Shown: in pieces, positions 19,377 through 25,383 of the stretch | Layout: the number at the start of each line of letters is the position of its first letter | How positions within the stretch are numbered: the stretch's first letter is position 1 | Assembly: GCA_002706365.1 (NCBI GenBank) | Contig: PALM01000037.1 | Span: forward strand, 1 to 34,224 | Length of the DNA: 34,224 bases | DNA from: Flavobacteriales bacterium | GTDB taxonomy: Bacteria; Bacteroidota; Bacteroidia; Flavobacteriales_E; Vicingaceae | Direction of reading: 5' to 3' | The notes under the pieces: model-generated | Told to the model about the DNA's origin: nothing | What the model saw: only the letters and a program-made list of their open reading frames with translations | The model's database searches: none | Made by a program: the position numbers and the translations under genes

Positions 19377-20792
19377 CTATTTCAGCTTGGCAGCAATAAA
19401 TTTTTTATTAAGCCAAAAGCTTTGCCACGATATTCTAATTTTCTCTTCTGTATATTCAAAAAATGGAATGTCAATATCATTTGAGTCTTTTGCATGAGGT
19501 CTAACATGAATTATTTGAGATTGACTTGATTTGAGCAAATTGTTTTCTTGCCTGTATCCTTCACCATGTTTCTTACTCTTTACTTCAATGCCAGTCTCAA
19601 TTTGTCTTTTAACGAATTCCCATTCTTTCTTTATGATACTCATTTCTTCGTTAGACGCCTTCCATACAACGGATCTACCAATCTTCCAGGTTTTCCAGTG
19701 CTTAAATTTCGGTTTAGTTCCTGCTTTAACTTTGATTTTCTCTTTTATTACAGGAATAAATATGAATGTCTTACTTATCAAATTTCTGAACACTGAATCA
19801 ATTTCTCCATCCCATTCTTCATCTAATAAATCGACTAAGCTAAATTTTGGGAATGACATTGCTTCCCATAGATTGTAGTTGCTATTTACGGGTACAGTTT
19901 TAATTTCAATACCTTTCAAATCTATATCCAGAATATTCTGATTTGAACTAAATCCTAAAAGCTGATTAATTAAAAATCTAAATGAACTTTTTGAACTCTT
20001 TGAAAAGGTTACATCATATTCTTCTCCTATCGAATCGAGAGTCTTTCCTTCCAAATGATGATTTATTTTCTCAATCAGGTAATCTTCCGTTTTTAGATCT
20101 TTCGATATTTCTAAAGAGTAATATTTTTTCCTTTTGACCTTTCTATCATAAAAGTTTTTTAAATAACTGTGTTTGAGACTATAACTTCTGGGTTTTGCAG
20201 ATTTATTATTGCCATATTTAACTGGCTTCCCAGAGCCTGATGTACTTGCCCCTAAAATAGTGCTGTCACCTTCAGATAATTCATCAGCTTTATCACTTTT
20301 GACTTTGTATTTAATGCCTTCCCAGTCCTCTTGGACCACACTTGGGCTTTCAGACTCTAATTCATATAGAAGAGTGTATTTAAATTTAAACTCTTTCCAA
20401 TCTTTGTACGACTTACCAATAGGGTGTTCATAAATCAGAAATAGCACCTTGTCAAGTTTGTTTTTTAAATTTGAGTTAACCCATTCTTCTTCAATAATTT
20501 GATTGTAATTTATTGATTTGATTTTTGATCTTTCTTTAGGTTGATATGCATTTCCAACCTTTCTGATAGGTAGCGCCTTTAACTCAAGACCTAAATAGCC
20601 TATATCTGGATTTGGATTTGAATTTGGTGAATTGCCGACCAACCCTTCTAATACTTGACCTGCAGCACCTTTATTAGTATTAATAATTACTTCAGGAAAT
20701 TCTTTTTTTATATGTTTATAAATTGATTCAAGCGACCAGTTCTGAAAATGAGAATAATAATTCTCTATGGCTTTAACACTATCGAACTTCAT
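19377..20792 (-). CDS. Sau3AI-like restriction endonuclease with two MutH-type domains
   Basis: A 471-residue type II endonuclease of the MutH/Sau3AI family, predicted to cut at GATC. The N-terminal MutH domain carries PDIGYLGLELKALPI, giving D63, E70 and K72 in D-x6-E-x-K spacing. The C-terminal half has a second copy of the fold with LDIDLKGIEIKTVPV, giving D289, E296 and K298 in the same spacing. The known Sau3AI plan is two MutH-like halves with the second serving a regulatory role. The ATG at 20792 is chosen, overlapping the methyltransferase stop by 14 bp; a TTG nine codons upstream also reads. The AT-rich composition differs from the housekeeping genes around. GATC specificity is inferred from family and partner. 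Confidence 0.88.
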   Translation of the reverse strand: MKFDSVKAIENYYSHFQNWSLESIYKHIKKEFPEVIINTNKGAAGQVLEGLVGNSPNSNPNPDIGYLGLELKALPIRKVGNAYQPKERSKIKSINYNQIIEEEWVNSNLKNKLDKVLFLIYEHPIGKSYKDWKEFKFKYTLLYELESESPSVVQEDWEGIKYKVKSDKADELSEGDSTILGASTSGSGKPVKYGNNKSAKPRSYSLKHSYLKNFYDRKVKRKKYYSLEISKDLKTEDYLIEKINHHLEGKTLDSIGEEYDVTFSKSSKSSFRFLINQLLGFSSNQNILDIDLKGIEIKTVPVNSNYNLWEAMSFPKFSLVDLLDEEWDGEIDSVFRNLISKTFIFIPVIKEKIKVKAGTKPKFKHWKTWKIGRSVVWKASNEEMSIIKKEWEFVKRQIETGIEVKSKKHGEGYRQENNLLKSSQSQIIHVRPHAKDSNDIDIPFFEYTEEKIRISWQSFWLNKKFIAAKLK

Positions 20793-22212
20793 TAATACGG
20801 CTATTAAGCTCTTTGCCAACTTTTTCTACAATTCCCACAACAAGAGCATTTCCCATAAAGAATGCCCTTTTAGAAGGAGTGATTTCCTTCAATTCGTCTT
20901 TTTCTGGATCAATCCCTTTTTCTGTATGGTTGTCAGGGAACATATTTAGTCGTTCTAACTCAATTGGATGCAGTCTTCTAAGGGTTCCATCAATTTCTAT
21001 TAGGTGCTTGAATCTTGATGCTCCTGGACCGCCTTCACTTGTTATAATGGTTCTCGATGGCTTCTTTAAATCATCTGTTAGTGACAAAGGACCTTCTGTG
21101 TAGTAGAATTTGCCTTTCGAGCTGACTCTTTCTTCAGCTTTTTTGCCTTTTAGATATATCCATTTATCAAATTCAGTTTCTAAAATGGCTACAGAGCCTT
21201 CTCTTTTTAATTTCTTATTAATCGGGAAGTCTGGTCTTTGAATTTTATTTAGCGGCTTTTTTAGCTTTTTGTCTTTATCAACTATATAGTCCTTCAATTC
21301 TCCATTTTTCGGTTGAATTAGTACATTTTTAAGGATGTGATACTTTGAACTATAGCTCTCGCTTTCAATTGAGGCTTCATTTACAAAACAATCGCACATT
21401 AAAGTCTCACCATCCTTCATGACTCCTGCATTAAAGAATTTTCCTTCTTTAAAAGAATCGCTAGTTTTTGCAGGGTCCTTCAAAATTTTGCGACCGACCA
21501 ATTCTCCTTTTGGCTCAAATGGAAAAGAAGTTGAAAAGACTCCATCGGTTAATAGCCATTTTGAAAGGTCATTGATCTTAAAGGATGAATCATTTTTATA
21601 GGCAAGTATATAGACTCTTCTTCTTCTTTGTGGCATTCCATACTCAGCTGCATTGATCACTCTCCACTCGACATTATAACCTAGTTTGTAAAAGCATGAG
21701 AGCATGATGGCAAAGTCACGACCACGATTTGTAGTCGGGGATTTTAACATCCTGTCTACATTTTCAAGAAATACCATTTTAGGCTTTCTTGCCTTGATGA
21801 GCTTATAGATATTCCACCAAAGCACTCCCTTTTTGCCTTCAATCCCTTTTGAATTAACACCAGCAACTGAATAATCCTGACAAGGAAAACCTCCAACAAG
21901 AAGGTCATGTTCAGGAATGTTCTTTTGAACTGCTTTGTCAGTCATTTGTGGTGAACAAACCAAATTTATGTCATTAGGATAATGTTTGTGTTCCTTAGAG
22001 TCTGGCCAATTTAGTTGATAAACCATATTGGCTTCTTGTCGCTCACCTGATCGTGCTGAGCTCGGCTCCCATTGATTACTCCAGACAACCTGATAATTGC
22101 TATCTAGCTTTTTCTCATAGTGAGAGCTAGCACTTTTGCCTTTCCATCCTTCTAATCCTAAGCGGAAACCACCAACCCCAGCAAATAGCTCAACTACTCT
22201 TAACTTACTCAT
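20779..22212 (-). CDS. DNA (cytosine-5) methyltransferase of the Sau3AI-like system
   Basis: A 477-residue m5C methyltransferase with all key motifs in order: I, ELFAGVGGFRLGL (8-20, S-adenosylmethionine binding); IV, GGFPCQDYS (108-115, catalytic C111); VI, FLENV (148-152); VIII, PQRRRRVYILAY (194-205); a target-recognition region at about 210-380; IX, RRLHPIELERLNMFPDN; X, GNALVVGIVEKVG. It protects the host from the endonuclease whose gene overlaps its 3' end by 14 bp. The partner type suggests GATC with methylated C. Vsr, encoded 71 bp upstream, would repair the T:G mismatches left when its product deaminates. Confidence 0.92.
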   Translation of the reverse strand: MSKLRVVELFAGVGGFRLGLEGWKGKSASSHYEKKLDSNYQVVWSNQWEPSSARSGERQEANMVYQLNWPDSKEHKHYPNDINLVCSPQMTDKAVQKNIPEHDLLVGGFPCQDYSVAGVNSKGIEGKKGVLWWNIYKLIKARKPKMVFLENVDRMLKSPTTNRGRDFAIMLSCFYKLGYNVEWRVINAAEYGMPQRRRRVYILAYKNDSSFKINDLSKWLLTDGVFSTSFPFEPKGELVGRKILKDPAKTSDSFKEGKFFNAGVMKDGETLMCDCFVNEASIESESYSSKYHILKNVLIQPKNGELKDYIVDKDKKLKKPLNKIQRPDFPINKKLKREGSVAILETEFDKWIYLKGKKAEERVSSKGKFYYTEGPLSLTDDLKKPSRTIITSEGGPGASRFKHLIEIDGTLRRLHPIELERLNMFPDNHTEKGIDPEKDELKEITPSKRAFFMGNALVVGIVEKVGKELNSRINEVR

Positions 22213-22283
22213 TCAAAAATCTATTAAGGACAATAAATTTAAGGGATAAGGGACCTTTTGAGGAAAATATGATCAAATAGTTA

Positions 22284-22733
22284 TCAACTGAAAAATTCAC
22301 TCTGAATCTTCTCAATAGTTTCATCGACATCTTCTTTTATTTCACATTCCCAGATGGTGAGGACTTTCCACCCATCATCTTCAAGAGCCTCGATCTTTCT
22401 TTGGTCTCGTTCTATATTCCTATCAAATTTTGCCTTCCACCATGCGGTATTTGATTTTGGTAGTTTGAGATTGCATTTTGGGCAACGATGCCAGTAGCAC
22501 CCATTAACGAAGATTGCTTTCTTTTGAGAAGGCCAACAAATATCGGGTCGACCAGGTGCTTTATTCCAATGTAGGCGATAACCCCGAATCCCGTTTTTGA
22601 AAAGCTCCTTTCTCAATATTAGCTCAGGCTTAGTGTTTTTAGCCTTGTTAGCGCTCATTACTTTGGAAGTCGCTTCTTTTGCTGGTTGTGGAGCTCGTCC
22701 GTCTCGTTTATATGTATTCTTTGTTTTTAGCAT
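22284..22733 (-). CDS. vsr: Very-short-patch repair endonuclease
   Basis: A 149-residue Vsr endonuclease. It nicks DNA 5' to the T of a T:G mismatch produced by deamination of 5-methylcytosine. Motifs: TKPELILRKELF (35-46), GRPDI with catalytic D64, FVNGCYWHRCPKC (75-87; metal and zinc ligands including H82, C84 and C87), NIERDQRKIEALEDDGW (106-122), VLTIWECEI (124-132). Length is normal. It is co-directional with the cytosine methyltransferase, the enzyme whose damage it repairs. Its ATG begins where the right half of an attC-like site would be expected (22735-22783), so the Vsr/R-M block may have been inserted into, or truncated, a cassette array. Confidence 0.93.
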   Translation of the reverse strand: MLKTKNTYKRDGRAPQPAKEATSKVMSANKAKNTKPELILRKELFKNGIRGYRLHWNKAPGRPDICWPSQKKAIFVNGCYWHRCPKCNLKLPKSNTAWWKAKFDRNIERDQRKIEALEDDGWKVLTIWECEIKEDVDETIEKIQSEFFS

Positions 22734-22734
22734 T

Positions 22735-22783
22735 GATTATCAACTGCCGCTCAGCGACATGATTTATAGCCTTTGTTGGGCAC
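22735..22783 (-). other. Truncated attC-like site downstream of the 306-aa gene
   Basis: On the minus strand, GTGCCCAAC (complement of 22775-22783) begins 3 bp after the stop codon. It contains GCCCAAC, a perfect RYYYAAC R'' box, followed by AAAGGCTATAAATCATG and an imperfect hairpin (22745-22759, extended by ATCA/TGAT). The matching right end (GTTRRRY) is missing; the vsr ATG lies there. The 9 bases are exactly complementary to the start of the same unit at 23724-23732. Confidence 0.55.
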
Positions 22784-22785
22784 AG

Positions 22786-23706
22786 TTACTTTTTCTCTGT
22801 TATTTCCAAATCCACGTCAACACCACTGGAAAGTACATTTACTGGATAAATGACACCCTTTTCATCTTTAATATAGAAACGATCTCCTTGCTTAATTTCA
22901 ATTCTTAAACTGTCAAAATCTCCTGAATACAGTTTAGACACTCCTTTTATGCCTTTGAAATCCAAAATTGCTTTGTCTCCAAAATCTTCCTTAGCTGAAA
23001 TCAGTGTACTACCGTTAAAAATTGACGTTGGGGATAAAAATGATATTCTGACTTTTAACGGGAATTTTTGTCTTAATTCCGAATTGTCTGGAACAAGCTG
23101 TTCAAGTTCAGAAACTAGCTCTTGTGAGGCGTCTAATGCGGTTTTCAAACTATCATTTTGGGTTAAGAAAACCTTATTAGTTTCAAAGAGTTCCAGTTTT
23201 TCAATATCGAACTGTGCTTTTCCATTTTGATAGCCAAAATAATAAGCTCCACCAATTATTGATAGCAGAATAGGAATAAAGATTCCCCAGTTAATTTTTG
23301 ACCATAAAGACTTAGTTTGTCTAAGGGTATTTATTTCTTGAGTCAATTCATTTATTTTTTCTTGGTCTTGTACTTCAACTATCCTTTCAACAACCTGAAC
23401 TTCTGGCTTGATAGATTTTGGTTTTGAACTTTCAAGTTTTAGTTCCTCAATTCTTGTATCCAATAGGTTAATTAGCTTTTGTTGTCCTTTTGACCAACTT
23501 TCTCGGTATGGCCTATCTCCCATGCCGCTCACGTAATACCCTGGAAAGAACCGTATTTGACCGATTTCAGAAGCGTAAGTGAATTTATTGGGAAATAATT
23601 TTTCCAAATACATCTTGGATTTCCTAATAATATCGTCTAATTCCTTCTCGTCTTTATATCTAAGATTTTGAGCTCTCCTTTTTAAATCTTCAAGTTTCTC
23701 TGTCAA
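22786..23706 (-). CDS. Coiled-coil single-span membrane protein in a cassette-like unit
   Basis: A 306-residue protein of unknown function. Residues 1-92 form a charged helical domain (LEDLKRRAQNLRYKDEKELD, KMYLEKLFPNKFTY, IRFFPGYYVSG). About 105-135 is coiled coil, 140-158 is one membrane span (GIFIPILLSIIGGAYYFGY), 165-205 is a second coiled coil, and 215-306 looks like a beta-rich domain. The start is TTG: an in-frame TGA lies two codons upstream, and the next ATG is residue 32. An out-of-frame ATG at 23713 reads only seven codons. It lies between attC-like junctions and next to Shedu, so a defence role is possible but unproven. The N-terminal segment reminds me of domains found in defence-island proteins; I cannot name the family. 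Confidence 0.7.
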   Translation of the reverse strand: MTEKLEDLKRRAQNLRYKDEKELDDIIRKSKMYLEKLFPNKFTYASEIGQIRFFPGYYVSGMGDRPYRESWSKGQQKLINLLDTRIEELKLESSKPKSIKPEVQVVERIVEVQDQEKINELTQEINTLRQTKSLWSKINWGIFIPILLSIIGGAYYFGYQNGKAQFDIEKLELFETNKVFLTQNDSLKTALDASQELVSELEQLVPDNSELRQKFPLKVRISFLSPTSIFNGSTLISAKEDFGDKAILDFKGIKGVSKLYSGDFDSLRIEIKQGDRFYIKDEKGVIYPVNVLSSGVDVDLEITEKK

Positions 23707-23725
23707 TGTTCATTCTTTTAATTGT

Positions 23726-23794
23726 GCCCAACGATCAGTATAAGTTGTAGTAGCCATCCCGCAGGGTGGCTATGCATTTTATACCTTGTTGTGG
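23726..23794 (-). other. attC-like recombination site between Shedu and the 306-aa gene
   Basis: A 69-bp imperfect palindrome in the gap between the two genes. Minus-strand reading: CCACAAC (R''-like), AAGGTATAA, the central 9-bp stem TAGCCACCC/GGGATGGCTA (23751-23772), TTATACTGATC, then GTTGGGC, a perfect GTTRRRY R' box. Inner arms GTATAA and TTATAC (23738-23743, 23779-23784) are exactly complementary. Size and box order match integron attC sites; the R'' box is imperfect. Confidence 0.6.
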
Positions 23795-23800
23795 ATTGTT

Positions 23801-25159
23801 TTATTCTTTATTTAATTCAAGTCTCGTTCTAGCATTTTCCAAGAGTTCAGAATAAGTCAGGATTTTGATATTTTTAAGTGAATGTTGTAACTCTTTATAT
23901 GCTTGGAGACAATCATTGTCATAATCTTCTTTAGTCACTTTTGCCTTAACTGCATCACTTAGTTGACTATAGTCCTTAGAGAGTTTTTTCCAAGAGCCTA
24001 TAACTATCAGTGCTTTTGGCCGAATACTTTCAACGAACATTGTGTTACCAATTTCGTCATTAATAAACTCTCTTATTTTCTTTCCTCCAATCTTATATTC
24101 ATCATCATTATCCTTATTGATTGCTGTTATGTATCTTTCTGTTTGTGAGATAGCTATTGCTAAATCCTTGGAGGGGTAAAACTTCCCTCTTCCATTCCCA
24201 TAATCAAAAAGATATTGGTCAGGCCTTTTTAGTTCAACAATCTCAATGTCTCCTAAATGATTTATTAGGATTAGGTCAAATTGGGAACGCGAACTTCCTT
24301 CATGAATCACATACTTGTCAGTGTTGAGTAATGCAGGTACTCCAAAGATTGAATATTGTCCATAATCGCTCAATATTTTCTCCATCAAGTGCTCTGGTCC
24401 TGTGATACTAATTTTAGTGTACTTAAACTTTTCTGAGCCTATATTTTTCGCTTTAGGTTTTGTCAGTTTGTCTATGTCTAATATTTCCTCTACTGTATTA
24501 ATTAGCCACACAGTTTGCTTATTGATATGTTTTTCAATTACAACTTTAGATGATTCTCCTGATTCCAAATTATTCGTAAATGCTACAATGTCATCTTGGG
24601 TGAATTCACCACTTGCAAGAATTTCATCAAGTAGAAGTGAATAGTCTCTTTCAACTTCAATCTCAGAAGTATCAAGACCAAATTCAGAATTCATATATGG
24701 TACAACTCTATTAAAAACCCGTACTTTCTTGTCTTTTCCTTCTTCTCTATTGATTCGATTTATTGTTTCATAAAGAGTCTTGGTAACTTTAATTTCATTT
24801 CCATTGATACTATTAGAAACATGACCAATATGTATTCTTTCAATATTAGTATTTCCTAGGTTCTTAAATACCTCATAGACATTTTTAGCACCTTTTGGAG
24901 GATTTATTGGATTAGAATTTACAAGAGTTAGATTCTCATGGCTTAAGACTAAAGTAACTGAATAGTTGTCTTCCCATAGAGGAGAGGTAGATGTCGGAGA
25001 AAATCTTGTTTTGCCATAGACTAATTCAGTTTCCGAAACCTGCAATAAGACTTCTTCATCAAATTGATAAGTCCCGCCACTAGAAGAAATACTATCGAAC
25101 TGAGTTAAAGTGTTCAGCTTTGTTTCGAGTTTTTCTTTGACTGTCTTCTTGAATGCCAT
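23801..25159 (-). CDS. sduA: Shedu anti-phage nuclease, SduA (DUF4263) type
   Basis: A 452-residue protein. The C-terminal part (about 250-430) matches the Shedu/DUF4263 nuclease, a PD-(D/E)xK enzyme: RSQFDLILIN supplies D295, IEIVELKRPD supplies E309 and K311, and AISQTERYITAI supplies the downstream Gln/Tyr helix (Q339), followed by RPKALIVIGS and the closing ILTYSELLENA. The N-terminal about 230 residues are a separate beta-rich region of the kind that varies among Shedu proteins and is thought to sense infection. Shedu is a single-gene anti-phage system. The gene sits in a cassette-like unit: 24 bp upstream of the ATG is GTTGTGC (minus strand), and 7 bp downstream of the stop begins an attC-like site. 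Confidence 0.85.
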   Translation of the reverse strand: MAFKKTVKEKLETKLNTLTQFDSISSSGGTYQFDEEVLLQVSETELVYGKTRFSPTSTSPLWEDNYSVTLVLSHENLTLVNSNPINPPKGAKNVYEVFKNLGNTNIERIHIGHVSNSINGNEIKVTKTLYETINRINREEGKDKKVRVFNRVVPYMNSEFGLDTSEIEVERDYSLLLDEILASGEFTQDDIVAFTNNLESGESSKVVIEKHINKQTVWLINTVEEILDIDKLTKPKAKNIGSEKFKYTKISITGPEHLMEKILSDYGQYSIFGVPALLNTDKYVIHEGSSRSQFDLILINHLGDIEIVELKRPDQYLFDYGNGRGKFYPSKDLAIAISQTERYITAINKDNDDEYKIGGKKIREFINDEIGNTMFVESIRPKALIVIGSWKKLSKDYSQLSDAVKAKVTKEDYDNDCLQAYKELQHSLKNIKILTYSELLENARTRLELNKE

Positions 25160-25182
25160 TTTATAGGTCTGGTTTTAATAAT

Positions 25183-25218
25183 GCACAACAAGGGGCTAAA
25201 AAACACTCACTTGTTAGC
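25183..25218 (-). other. Degenerate attC-like end upstream of Shedu
   Basis: Minus-strand reading: CTAACAAG (25210-25217), 14-18 nt of T-rich spacer, then CCTTGTTGTGC (25183-25193). AACAAG and CTTGTT are exactly complementary, and CCTTGTTGTG is the exact complement of CACAACAAGG at the downstream end of the Shedu unit (23784-23793). The remaining gap, 25219-25383, shows nothing I can name. Confidence 0.45.
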
Positions 25219-25383
25219 AAATGGATAAGCTTGTTATCCAATATTTGATTAATTAGTCTTTTTGCAATATAATCACTAAAGGATTTGAAGCCAAATTGAT
25301 TGTATAAGAGCAGTTTAATGCCTCACCAACCACAAATTCCTCACCTTTGAACAAGTTCGAAGCAAGGAGCATGGAGTAGGGCT

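Follow-up and report, generated by a model that had tools for sequence, protein, structure and literature searches.

We analysed a 34,224-nucleotide stretch of DNA (the window; contig PALM01000037.1 of assembly GCA_002706365.1), which is contig C37 in the 3.0-Mb genome of a Flavobacteriales bacterium. It contains two adjacent minus-strand genes, one for a Shedu nuclease and one for a 306-residue protein, which a first-pass annotation made from the sequence alone had placed in integron-cassette-like units bounded by attC-like junctions. Both genes are framed by halves of a folded site, and the strings quoted in that annotation all occur where it placed them (Table 1). The cassette of the 306-residue protein starts with GTTGGGCACAATTA and ends with TAACTGTGCCCAAC. 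As annotated, its start is complementary to its own end, exactly so over 10 bp and over 13 of 14 positions overall, the exception being a single A·C at position 11. We refer to such start-to-end complementarity, scored over 14 positions, as closure. The pair GTTGGGCACAATTA/GTTGGGCACAGTTA was the sole match of a closure scan in the window, where 0.00 matches were expected. This 14-position rule replaced a simple 9-mer inverted-repeat scan, which was too noisy (90 matches vs 37 expected).

In the Shedu cassette, the start GTTGTGCATTATTA agrees with the reverse complement of the end GTTGTGGATTGTTT at 11 of 14 positions, with A·C again at position 11. The exact 10-mer first reported at its ends (CCTTGTTGTG/CACAACAAGG) is real, but it straddles the spacer and the R box, and the R box has a mismatch at position 7. 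The Shedu open reading frame (ORF) starts ~30 nt inside the cassette and stops 13 nt short of the cassette end. When closure was tested ORF by ORF, the 306-residue gene reached 13 and the Shedu gene 11, and the next-best ORF of the window reached 6; 318 control ORFs scored at most 8, except three at 12–13 that are possibly cassettes themselves. The SduA_C domain (PF14082) matches the Shedu protein at 53.2 bits (Pfam cut-off 27), which by family would make this a phage-defence-type gene. The 306-residue protein has no match in Pfam, and a membrane segment is visible in it by eye.

Table 1 Cassettes, recombination sites and genes at the locus (positions in the window)
Feature	Position	Strand	Evidence and details
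Shedu gene cassette, 1402 bp	23788..25189	-	GTT of own R' half to AAC of own R'' half
306-aa gene cassette, 958 bp	22775..23732	-	Closure 13/14
Complete attC-like site between both cassettes (R''-L''-hairpin-L'-R')	23723..23797	-	Covariance model R2
Degenerate site upstream of Shedu	25180..25222	-	R'' TTGCTAAC, L'-R' TTTTTTAGCC-CCTT-GTTGTGCATT; L'' missing
Truncated site downstream of 306-aa gene	22735..22784	-	R'' TGTGCCCAAC, L'' GGCTATAAATCATG, hairpin GTCGCTGAGCGGC; L' and R' lost
Shedu nuclease SduA, 452 aa	23801..25159	-	Pfam SduA_C PF14082, PADLOC SduA
306-aa protein, candidate defence protein	22786..23706	-	PADLOC PDC-S35, E 3.4e-8, residues 3-102
Vsr, C5 DNA methyltransferase and MutH-like restriction enzyme	19377..22733	-	Pfam/PADLOC; abut truncated site

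attC-like sites in the window and their predicted folding

The complete site between the cassettes consists of R'' CCACAAC, spacer AAG, L'' GTATAA, a hairpin, L' TTATAC, spacer TGATC and R' GTTGGGCACA, and the conserved A·C oppositions at L-arm positions 7 and 12 can be recognized by eye. It measures 55 bp from AAC to GTT, or 75 bp with the 10-bp arms, instead of the 69 bp first given; its single R' core, GTTGGGC, conforms to GTTRRRY as the first-pass annotation had noted. We built two covariance models, R1 from 43 sites including that of the window and R2 without it, so that the unbiased score of the window is that of R2. With filters off, R2 has one match in the window, at 23724-23796 (32.3 bits, E 3e-6; the E-values of these models are rough), and a model made from the sites of other genomes thus scores the inter-gene site. 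The degenerate and truncated sites were not scored by R2, Rfam at gathering scores gave nothing in the window, and an exact pattern taken from the complete site had no second copy in the same genome.

The two outer sites are damaged. That the Shedu gene is flanked on both sides holds insofar as its cassette closes at 11 of 14 positions, but the upstream site has no L'' arm, a gap best read as the product of a deletion. The site downstream of the 306-residue gene is cut off by vsr, as annotated, with R'' and L'' kept and L' and R' lost. The restriction-modification block that includes vsr was considered as a third cassette and rejected, with a best vsr closure of 6/14. No tyrosine recombinase was found in the window, in line with the earlier statement that it holds no integrase, and all matches to the integron integrase profile TIGR02249 fall on other contigs. 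Clusters of attC sites lacking integrases (CALIN) are defined by the absence of an integrase and the presence of two or more attC sites inside 4 kb; here, one complete and two damaged sites lie within 2.5 kb on a contig without an integrase. The array in the window is an integrase-less fragment, decayed at both ends. We consider it very probable that both genes are cassettes of an integron-like system, left behind in this short array.

The pairing pattern recurs in a set of 75 sites. When cassette starts were compared with cassette ends, positions 1–8 were paired in all sites (by selection), position 9 in 95% and position 10 in 57%, whereas position 11 was almost never paired and held A·C in 77%. 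Beyond it, positions 12–14 were paired in 84, 96 and 75% of sites (~40% when shuffled); because these positions lie outside the selection, they provide independent evidence for pairing. Pairing thus reaches position 14, and an R' core of GTTRRRY with a 7-bp R box is found in only 8% of the 75 sites. The L arm comprises six pairs, a conserved A·C at position 7, three pairs, a conserved A·C at position 12 (28 of 31 sites) and four pairs, and most spacers measure 3 nt on the 5' side and 5-6 nt on the 3' side. Across 42 aligned sites, 96.9% of cells are paired and 15 of 16 inner pairs vary on both sides; sliding the partners against each other reduced pairing to 33-57%. Because an A·C on the top strand becomes a G·T on the bottom one, the latter forms the better hairpin and is the more stable of the two in 68 of the 75 sites (p 4e-11). 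Separately, site lengths cluster near 53, 118 and 181 (L064-L130), in steps of ~64 nt that correspond to a ~32-bp stem or three helical turns.

Inverted repeats between co-oriented genes, with a T-rich run beside the stem on the strand opposite the gene, could also be transcription terminators or repetitive extragenic palindromic (REP)-like repeats that are intergenic for other reasons. We regard this as extremely improbable: neither would explain why a gene's start can pair with the end of the same gene across 14 positions that include a fixed mismatch, nor why sites should gather on a single strand downstream of a single family of integrases, as described below.

An XerA-like integrase family beside cassette arrays

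In the source genome, which was covered by searches and by individual stretches, no match to TIGR02249 exceeds the cut-off of 265 bits. The best is a 389-residue tyrosine recombinase at C6:3050-4219 (minus strand; 191.5 bits); four cassettes come straight after it, each closing exactly over 10 bp and at 12-13/14 overall (GTTAGCGTGC, GTTGTTCGCC, GTTAGGCGCA and GTTAGCAGCT, each with its reverse complement at its own cassette end). An integrase with a four-cassette array of its own is present elsewhere in the genome, and it is not an IntI. The C6 cassettes are set apart by sites of 279-293 bp, and one encodes a ParE-type toxin and, upstream of it, a small partner; another, at L010:1912-2100, is 189 bp long and has no ORF of at least 50 aa. 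Contig C35 carries a further array, which includes an RsgA GTPase cassette, and R1 detects eight sites in the genome. Two lone, short attC-like sites were also seen outside the known arrays, at C39:10532-10602 (40.5 bits) and C19:12594-12664 (33.2 bits), and are possibly single cassettes inserted elsewhere.

The C6 integrase scores 204 bits against the NCBIfam model recomb_XerA_Arch, under the cut-off of 220, and aligns with XerA and VchIntIA save for the IntI insertion, VchIntIA aligning in two pieces with a gap. This IntI-specific insertion lies near patch III. Of its 34 columns in IntI1 (R388), 32 other recombinases fill 0-1, and nine further array-side recombinases fill 0-1 of 44 IntI insert columns. 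All six catalytic residues (R, K, H, R, H, Y) are the same throughout the integrase family, whose genes are additional to what appear to be the genome's own XerC and XerD. The predicted structure of a Winogradskyella member (predicted local distance difference test score 84) matches XerA (5hxy) with a Z score of 24.3 and IntI4 (2a3v) with 21.2. In a phylogenetic tree, IntI1 sits on a long branch at an open fork, neither firmly inside nor firmly outside the family. Judged on sequence, the integrase is XerA-like and does not pass as an IntI, while the system would work like an integron.

Two layouts share one site class. Long integrases, as in this genome, G190, G113 and G174, are followed downstream by an array in the same orientation, and short ones (~272-280 aa) lack the extra domain and have a divergent array on their 5' side, in the classical geometry (G103, G096, G110, G238, G231 and G252). 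The ~80 extra N-terminal residues of the long form match HARP (best E 8.7e-6, 5 of 36 members) or DUF5710, and the fold of this domain matches the XPB damage-recognition domain weakly (Z 6.6). The idea that the HARP-like domain reads the fixed mismatches is weakened by this weak fold match and by the integrases that lack the domain and keep the same sites.

These data bear on whether the window might hold an ordinary IntI integron array (a CALIN) from another phylum, with the XerA-like enzyme incidental. Site anatomy, bottom-strand folding and cassette layout are as in attC cassettes, and the R' of the window happens to fit GTTRRRY. This explanation is nevertheless highly improbable, given that none of 60 related genomes has an IntI above the curated TIGR02249 cut-off of 265 bits, that the insertion is missing from every array-side integrase examined, that so few R' sites fit GTTRRRY, and that the 14-position closure with its fixed A·C was not seen in two R388 cassettes. 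R1 found no sites in 11 genomes of other phyla (0/11), and R2 matched neither plasmid R388 nor any of 12 loci from other phyla.

Distribution and proposed mechanism

In a sample with one genome per species, R1 detects sites in 54 of 60 relatives, in 102 of 198 Bacteroidota genomes (at E 1e-6, a lower bound) and in all 8 named Bacteroidota, and the same kind of site stands beside unrelated genes in many of these, as expected of cassettes in the first-pass annotation. The integrase is encoded in 38 of the 60 related genomes and in 74 of the 198 Bacteroidota genomes, and the two co-occur: 63 of the 74 genomes with an integrase have sites, compared with 39 of the 124 without (p 1e-13).

The linkage is also physical. 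Chains of cassettes extend from the integrase in Rufibacter sp. SYSU D00344 (12 cassettes), Algibacter onchidii (9), a metagenome-assembled genome (MAG) of Bacteroidota (7) and G017 (5); chains in reversed sequence reach at most 2. At Bacteroidota integrase loci, 83 closures lie on the integrase strand and 3 on the opposite strand, against 3.6 expected, and in 59 integrase loci the bottom strand holds 79 of 80 covariance matches, almost all of them located downstream of the integrase. The first cassette starts 26-330 nt past the integrase stop codon in ~28 loci, and the intervening sequence, a candidate attI region, is alike in close relatives and often contains an inverted repeat. Contigs end within 1 kb downstream of the integrase in 19 of 51 loci and within 1 kb upstream in 1 of 51, as expected from repeats just downstream.

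Plasmids and other phyla provide further cases. A Chryseobacterium sp. SNU WT5 plasmid (L187) carries a family integrase followed by cassettes with three closures (12-13/14), and plasmid 1 of Rufibacter tibetensis (L188), predicted to be mobilizable, carries one followed by cassettes with four closures (11-13/14). Outside Bacteroidota, related recombinases with arrays that obey the position-11 rule were seen in Saccharibacillus and Paenibacillus (L115, L121), a Firmicutes MAG (L119) and a Spirochaetes MAG (L133). The arrays in these organisms have other site lengths (82 bp in Saccharibacillus) and are unscored by the Bacteroidota model.

In the mechanism that we propose, excision would yield a circular cassette with its bottom strand folded as a hairpin. 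In the R arm, 9-10 bp that start with AAC/GTT would be followed by a fixed G·T wobble and 3 more bp; the L arm would consist of 6 bp, G·T, 3 bp, G·T and 4 bp, with spacers of 3 and 6 nt. The GTT boundary is where the XerA-like tyrosine recombinase would cut before joining the cassette to attI beside its own gene or to another attC. The anatomy and covariation of the sites, their folding bias, the composition of the cassettes, the association with the integrase here and in the phylum and the missing IntI insertion are read directly from sequence. We infer that this integrase recombines these sites, with the folded bottom strand as its substrate, and that the array in the window derives from the C6 integron or from that of another cell.

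Several observations speak against this interpretation. Only one of the three sites in the window is complete, and as linear DNA it folds with almost no strand bias (-10.7 for the bottom and -10.2 for the top strand); the circular form of the Shedu cassette gives -15.5 and -12.3, respectively. Sites occur in 39 of 124 genomes without a detected integrase, and 11 of the 74 integrase-bearing genomes have no sites. These last two counts would fit genuine cassettes that are recombined by XerC/XerD or another enzyme, with the XerA-like linkage reflecting shared mobility. That alternative appears very unlikely to us, because the first cassette so often begins directly after the integrase stop codon and because the linkage persists in two layouts, the short integrases having their divergent array at the opposite end. 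We therefore favour recombination by the XerA-like family. Bacteroidota, together with some Bacillota and Spirochaetota, probably harbour a second integron lineage, with an XerA-like integrase that lacks the IntI insertion and a new site layout (a 14-position R arm and fixed wobble positions). It would be a main gene-exchange system of the phylum Bacteroidota, overlooked because integron searches use IntI models.

Cassette cargo and relation to known systems

Among 122 cassettes (median 738 bp), usually a single ORF fills the cassette, typically starting a few tens of bases past GTT and stopping shortly before the end, and the longest ORF is on the cassette strand in 104 of them. Defence-type cargo is frequent and includes type IIG restriction enzymes, AbiH, GmrSD, NB-ARC proteins, a Schlafen-type helicase and ParE toxins. 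The NB-ARC cassettes of G015 and Algoriphagus are related to each other, as are the type IIG cassettes of Winogradskyella and a further MAG. The first-pass suggestion that anti-phage genes travel as cassettes is borne out by further Shedu genes that alone fill such cassettes: 28 Shedu loci in 24 genomes include, besides that of the window, four exact cassettes with 13/14 closure (two in G113 and one each in G229 and G193), and in G319 one Shedu gene lies between two sites. Both G113 cassettes are in a region that extends downstream from the G113 integrase.

A resistance gene may have the same source. On the Acinetobacter indicus plasmid p80-1-2-tetX3 (NZ_CP041297.1; L186, 6052-8098), a 5'-truncated family integrase precedes tet(X3) by 190 bp. 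The DNA ahead of tet(X3) is similar to the attI of Winogradskyella-type integrons, and the gene itself shows 10/14 closure with A·C at position 11. A Bacteroidota integron picked up with ISCR2 may once have had tet(X3) as its first cassette. The same does not apply to tet(X4), X5 and X6, which stand beside estT and not beside a family integrase.

The system resembles the sedentary chromosomal IntI integrons of Vibrio, Xanthomonas and others in its arrays of single-ORF cassettes, in R''/L''/L'/R' hairpin sites with bottom-strand preference (PMC8946536) and in defence cargo, which is known from IntI integrons and includes Shedu in Xanthomonas cassettes (PMC12444791). It differs from them in that the integrase has no IntI insertion, the R box is longer and not GTTRRRY, wobble positions are fixed, and the array is often downstream of the integrase and co-oriented with it. 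The chromosome-dimer recombinases XerA and XerH are closest to the Bacteroidota integrase in fold and sequence, but the latter stands beside cassette arrays and often has an extra N-terminal HARP/DUF5710-related domain. NCBI names the family of XerA-like proteins 'site-specific tyrosine recombinase/integron integrase'. Reviews count Bacteroidota among the integron-bearing phyla (PMC8618304, PMC9668308); the integrons earlier reported there are from the same phylum, but were detected by IntI models. Complete integrons are described as very rare in Bacteroidota, and the one that IntegronFinder 2.0 reported from Bacteroidetes is in Salinibacter (PMC9024848). We found no prior description of this site class or of its link to the integrase in the open-access literature, subscription papers and preprints lying outside the search.

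Bacteroidota thus appear to possess a major, widespread gene-swapping system whose recombinase lies outside the known integron-integrase family, and it seems to have gone largely unrecognised: about half of a broad sample of the phylum bears its sites, against the description of complete integrons as very rare (PMC9024848). If the integrase acts as proposed, recombination of folded single strands would be possible without the IntI insertion. Were the insertion dispensable in this way, recognition of attC hairpins could be tested directly by comparison of the two enzyme types. For the phylum, the system would provide a route by which defence genes spread, among them Shedu, type IIG restriction enzymes, AbiH, GmrSD, NB-ARC proteins and ParE toxins, and it offers a possible origin for mobile tet(X3).
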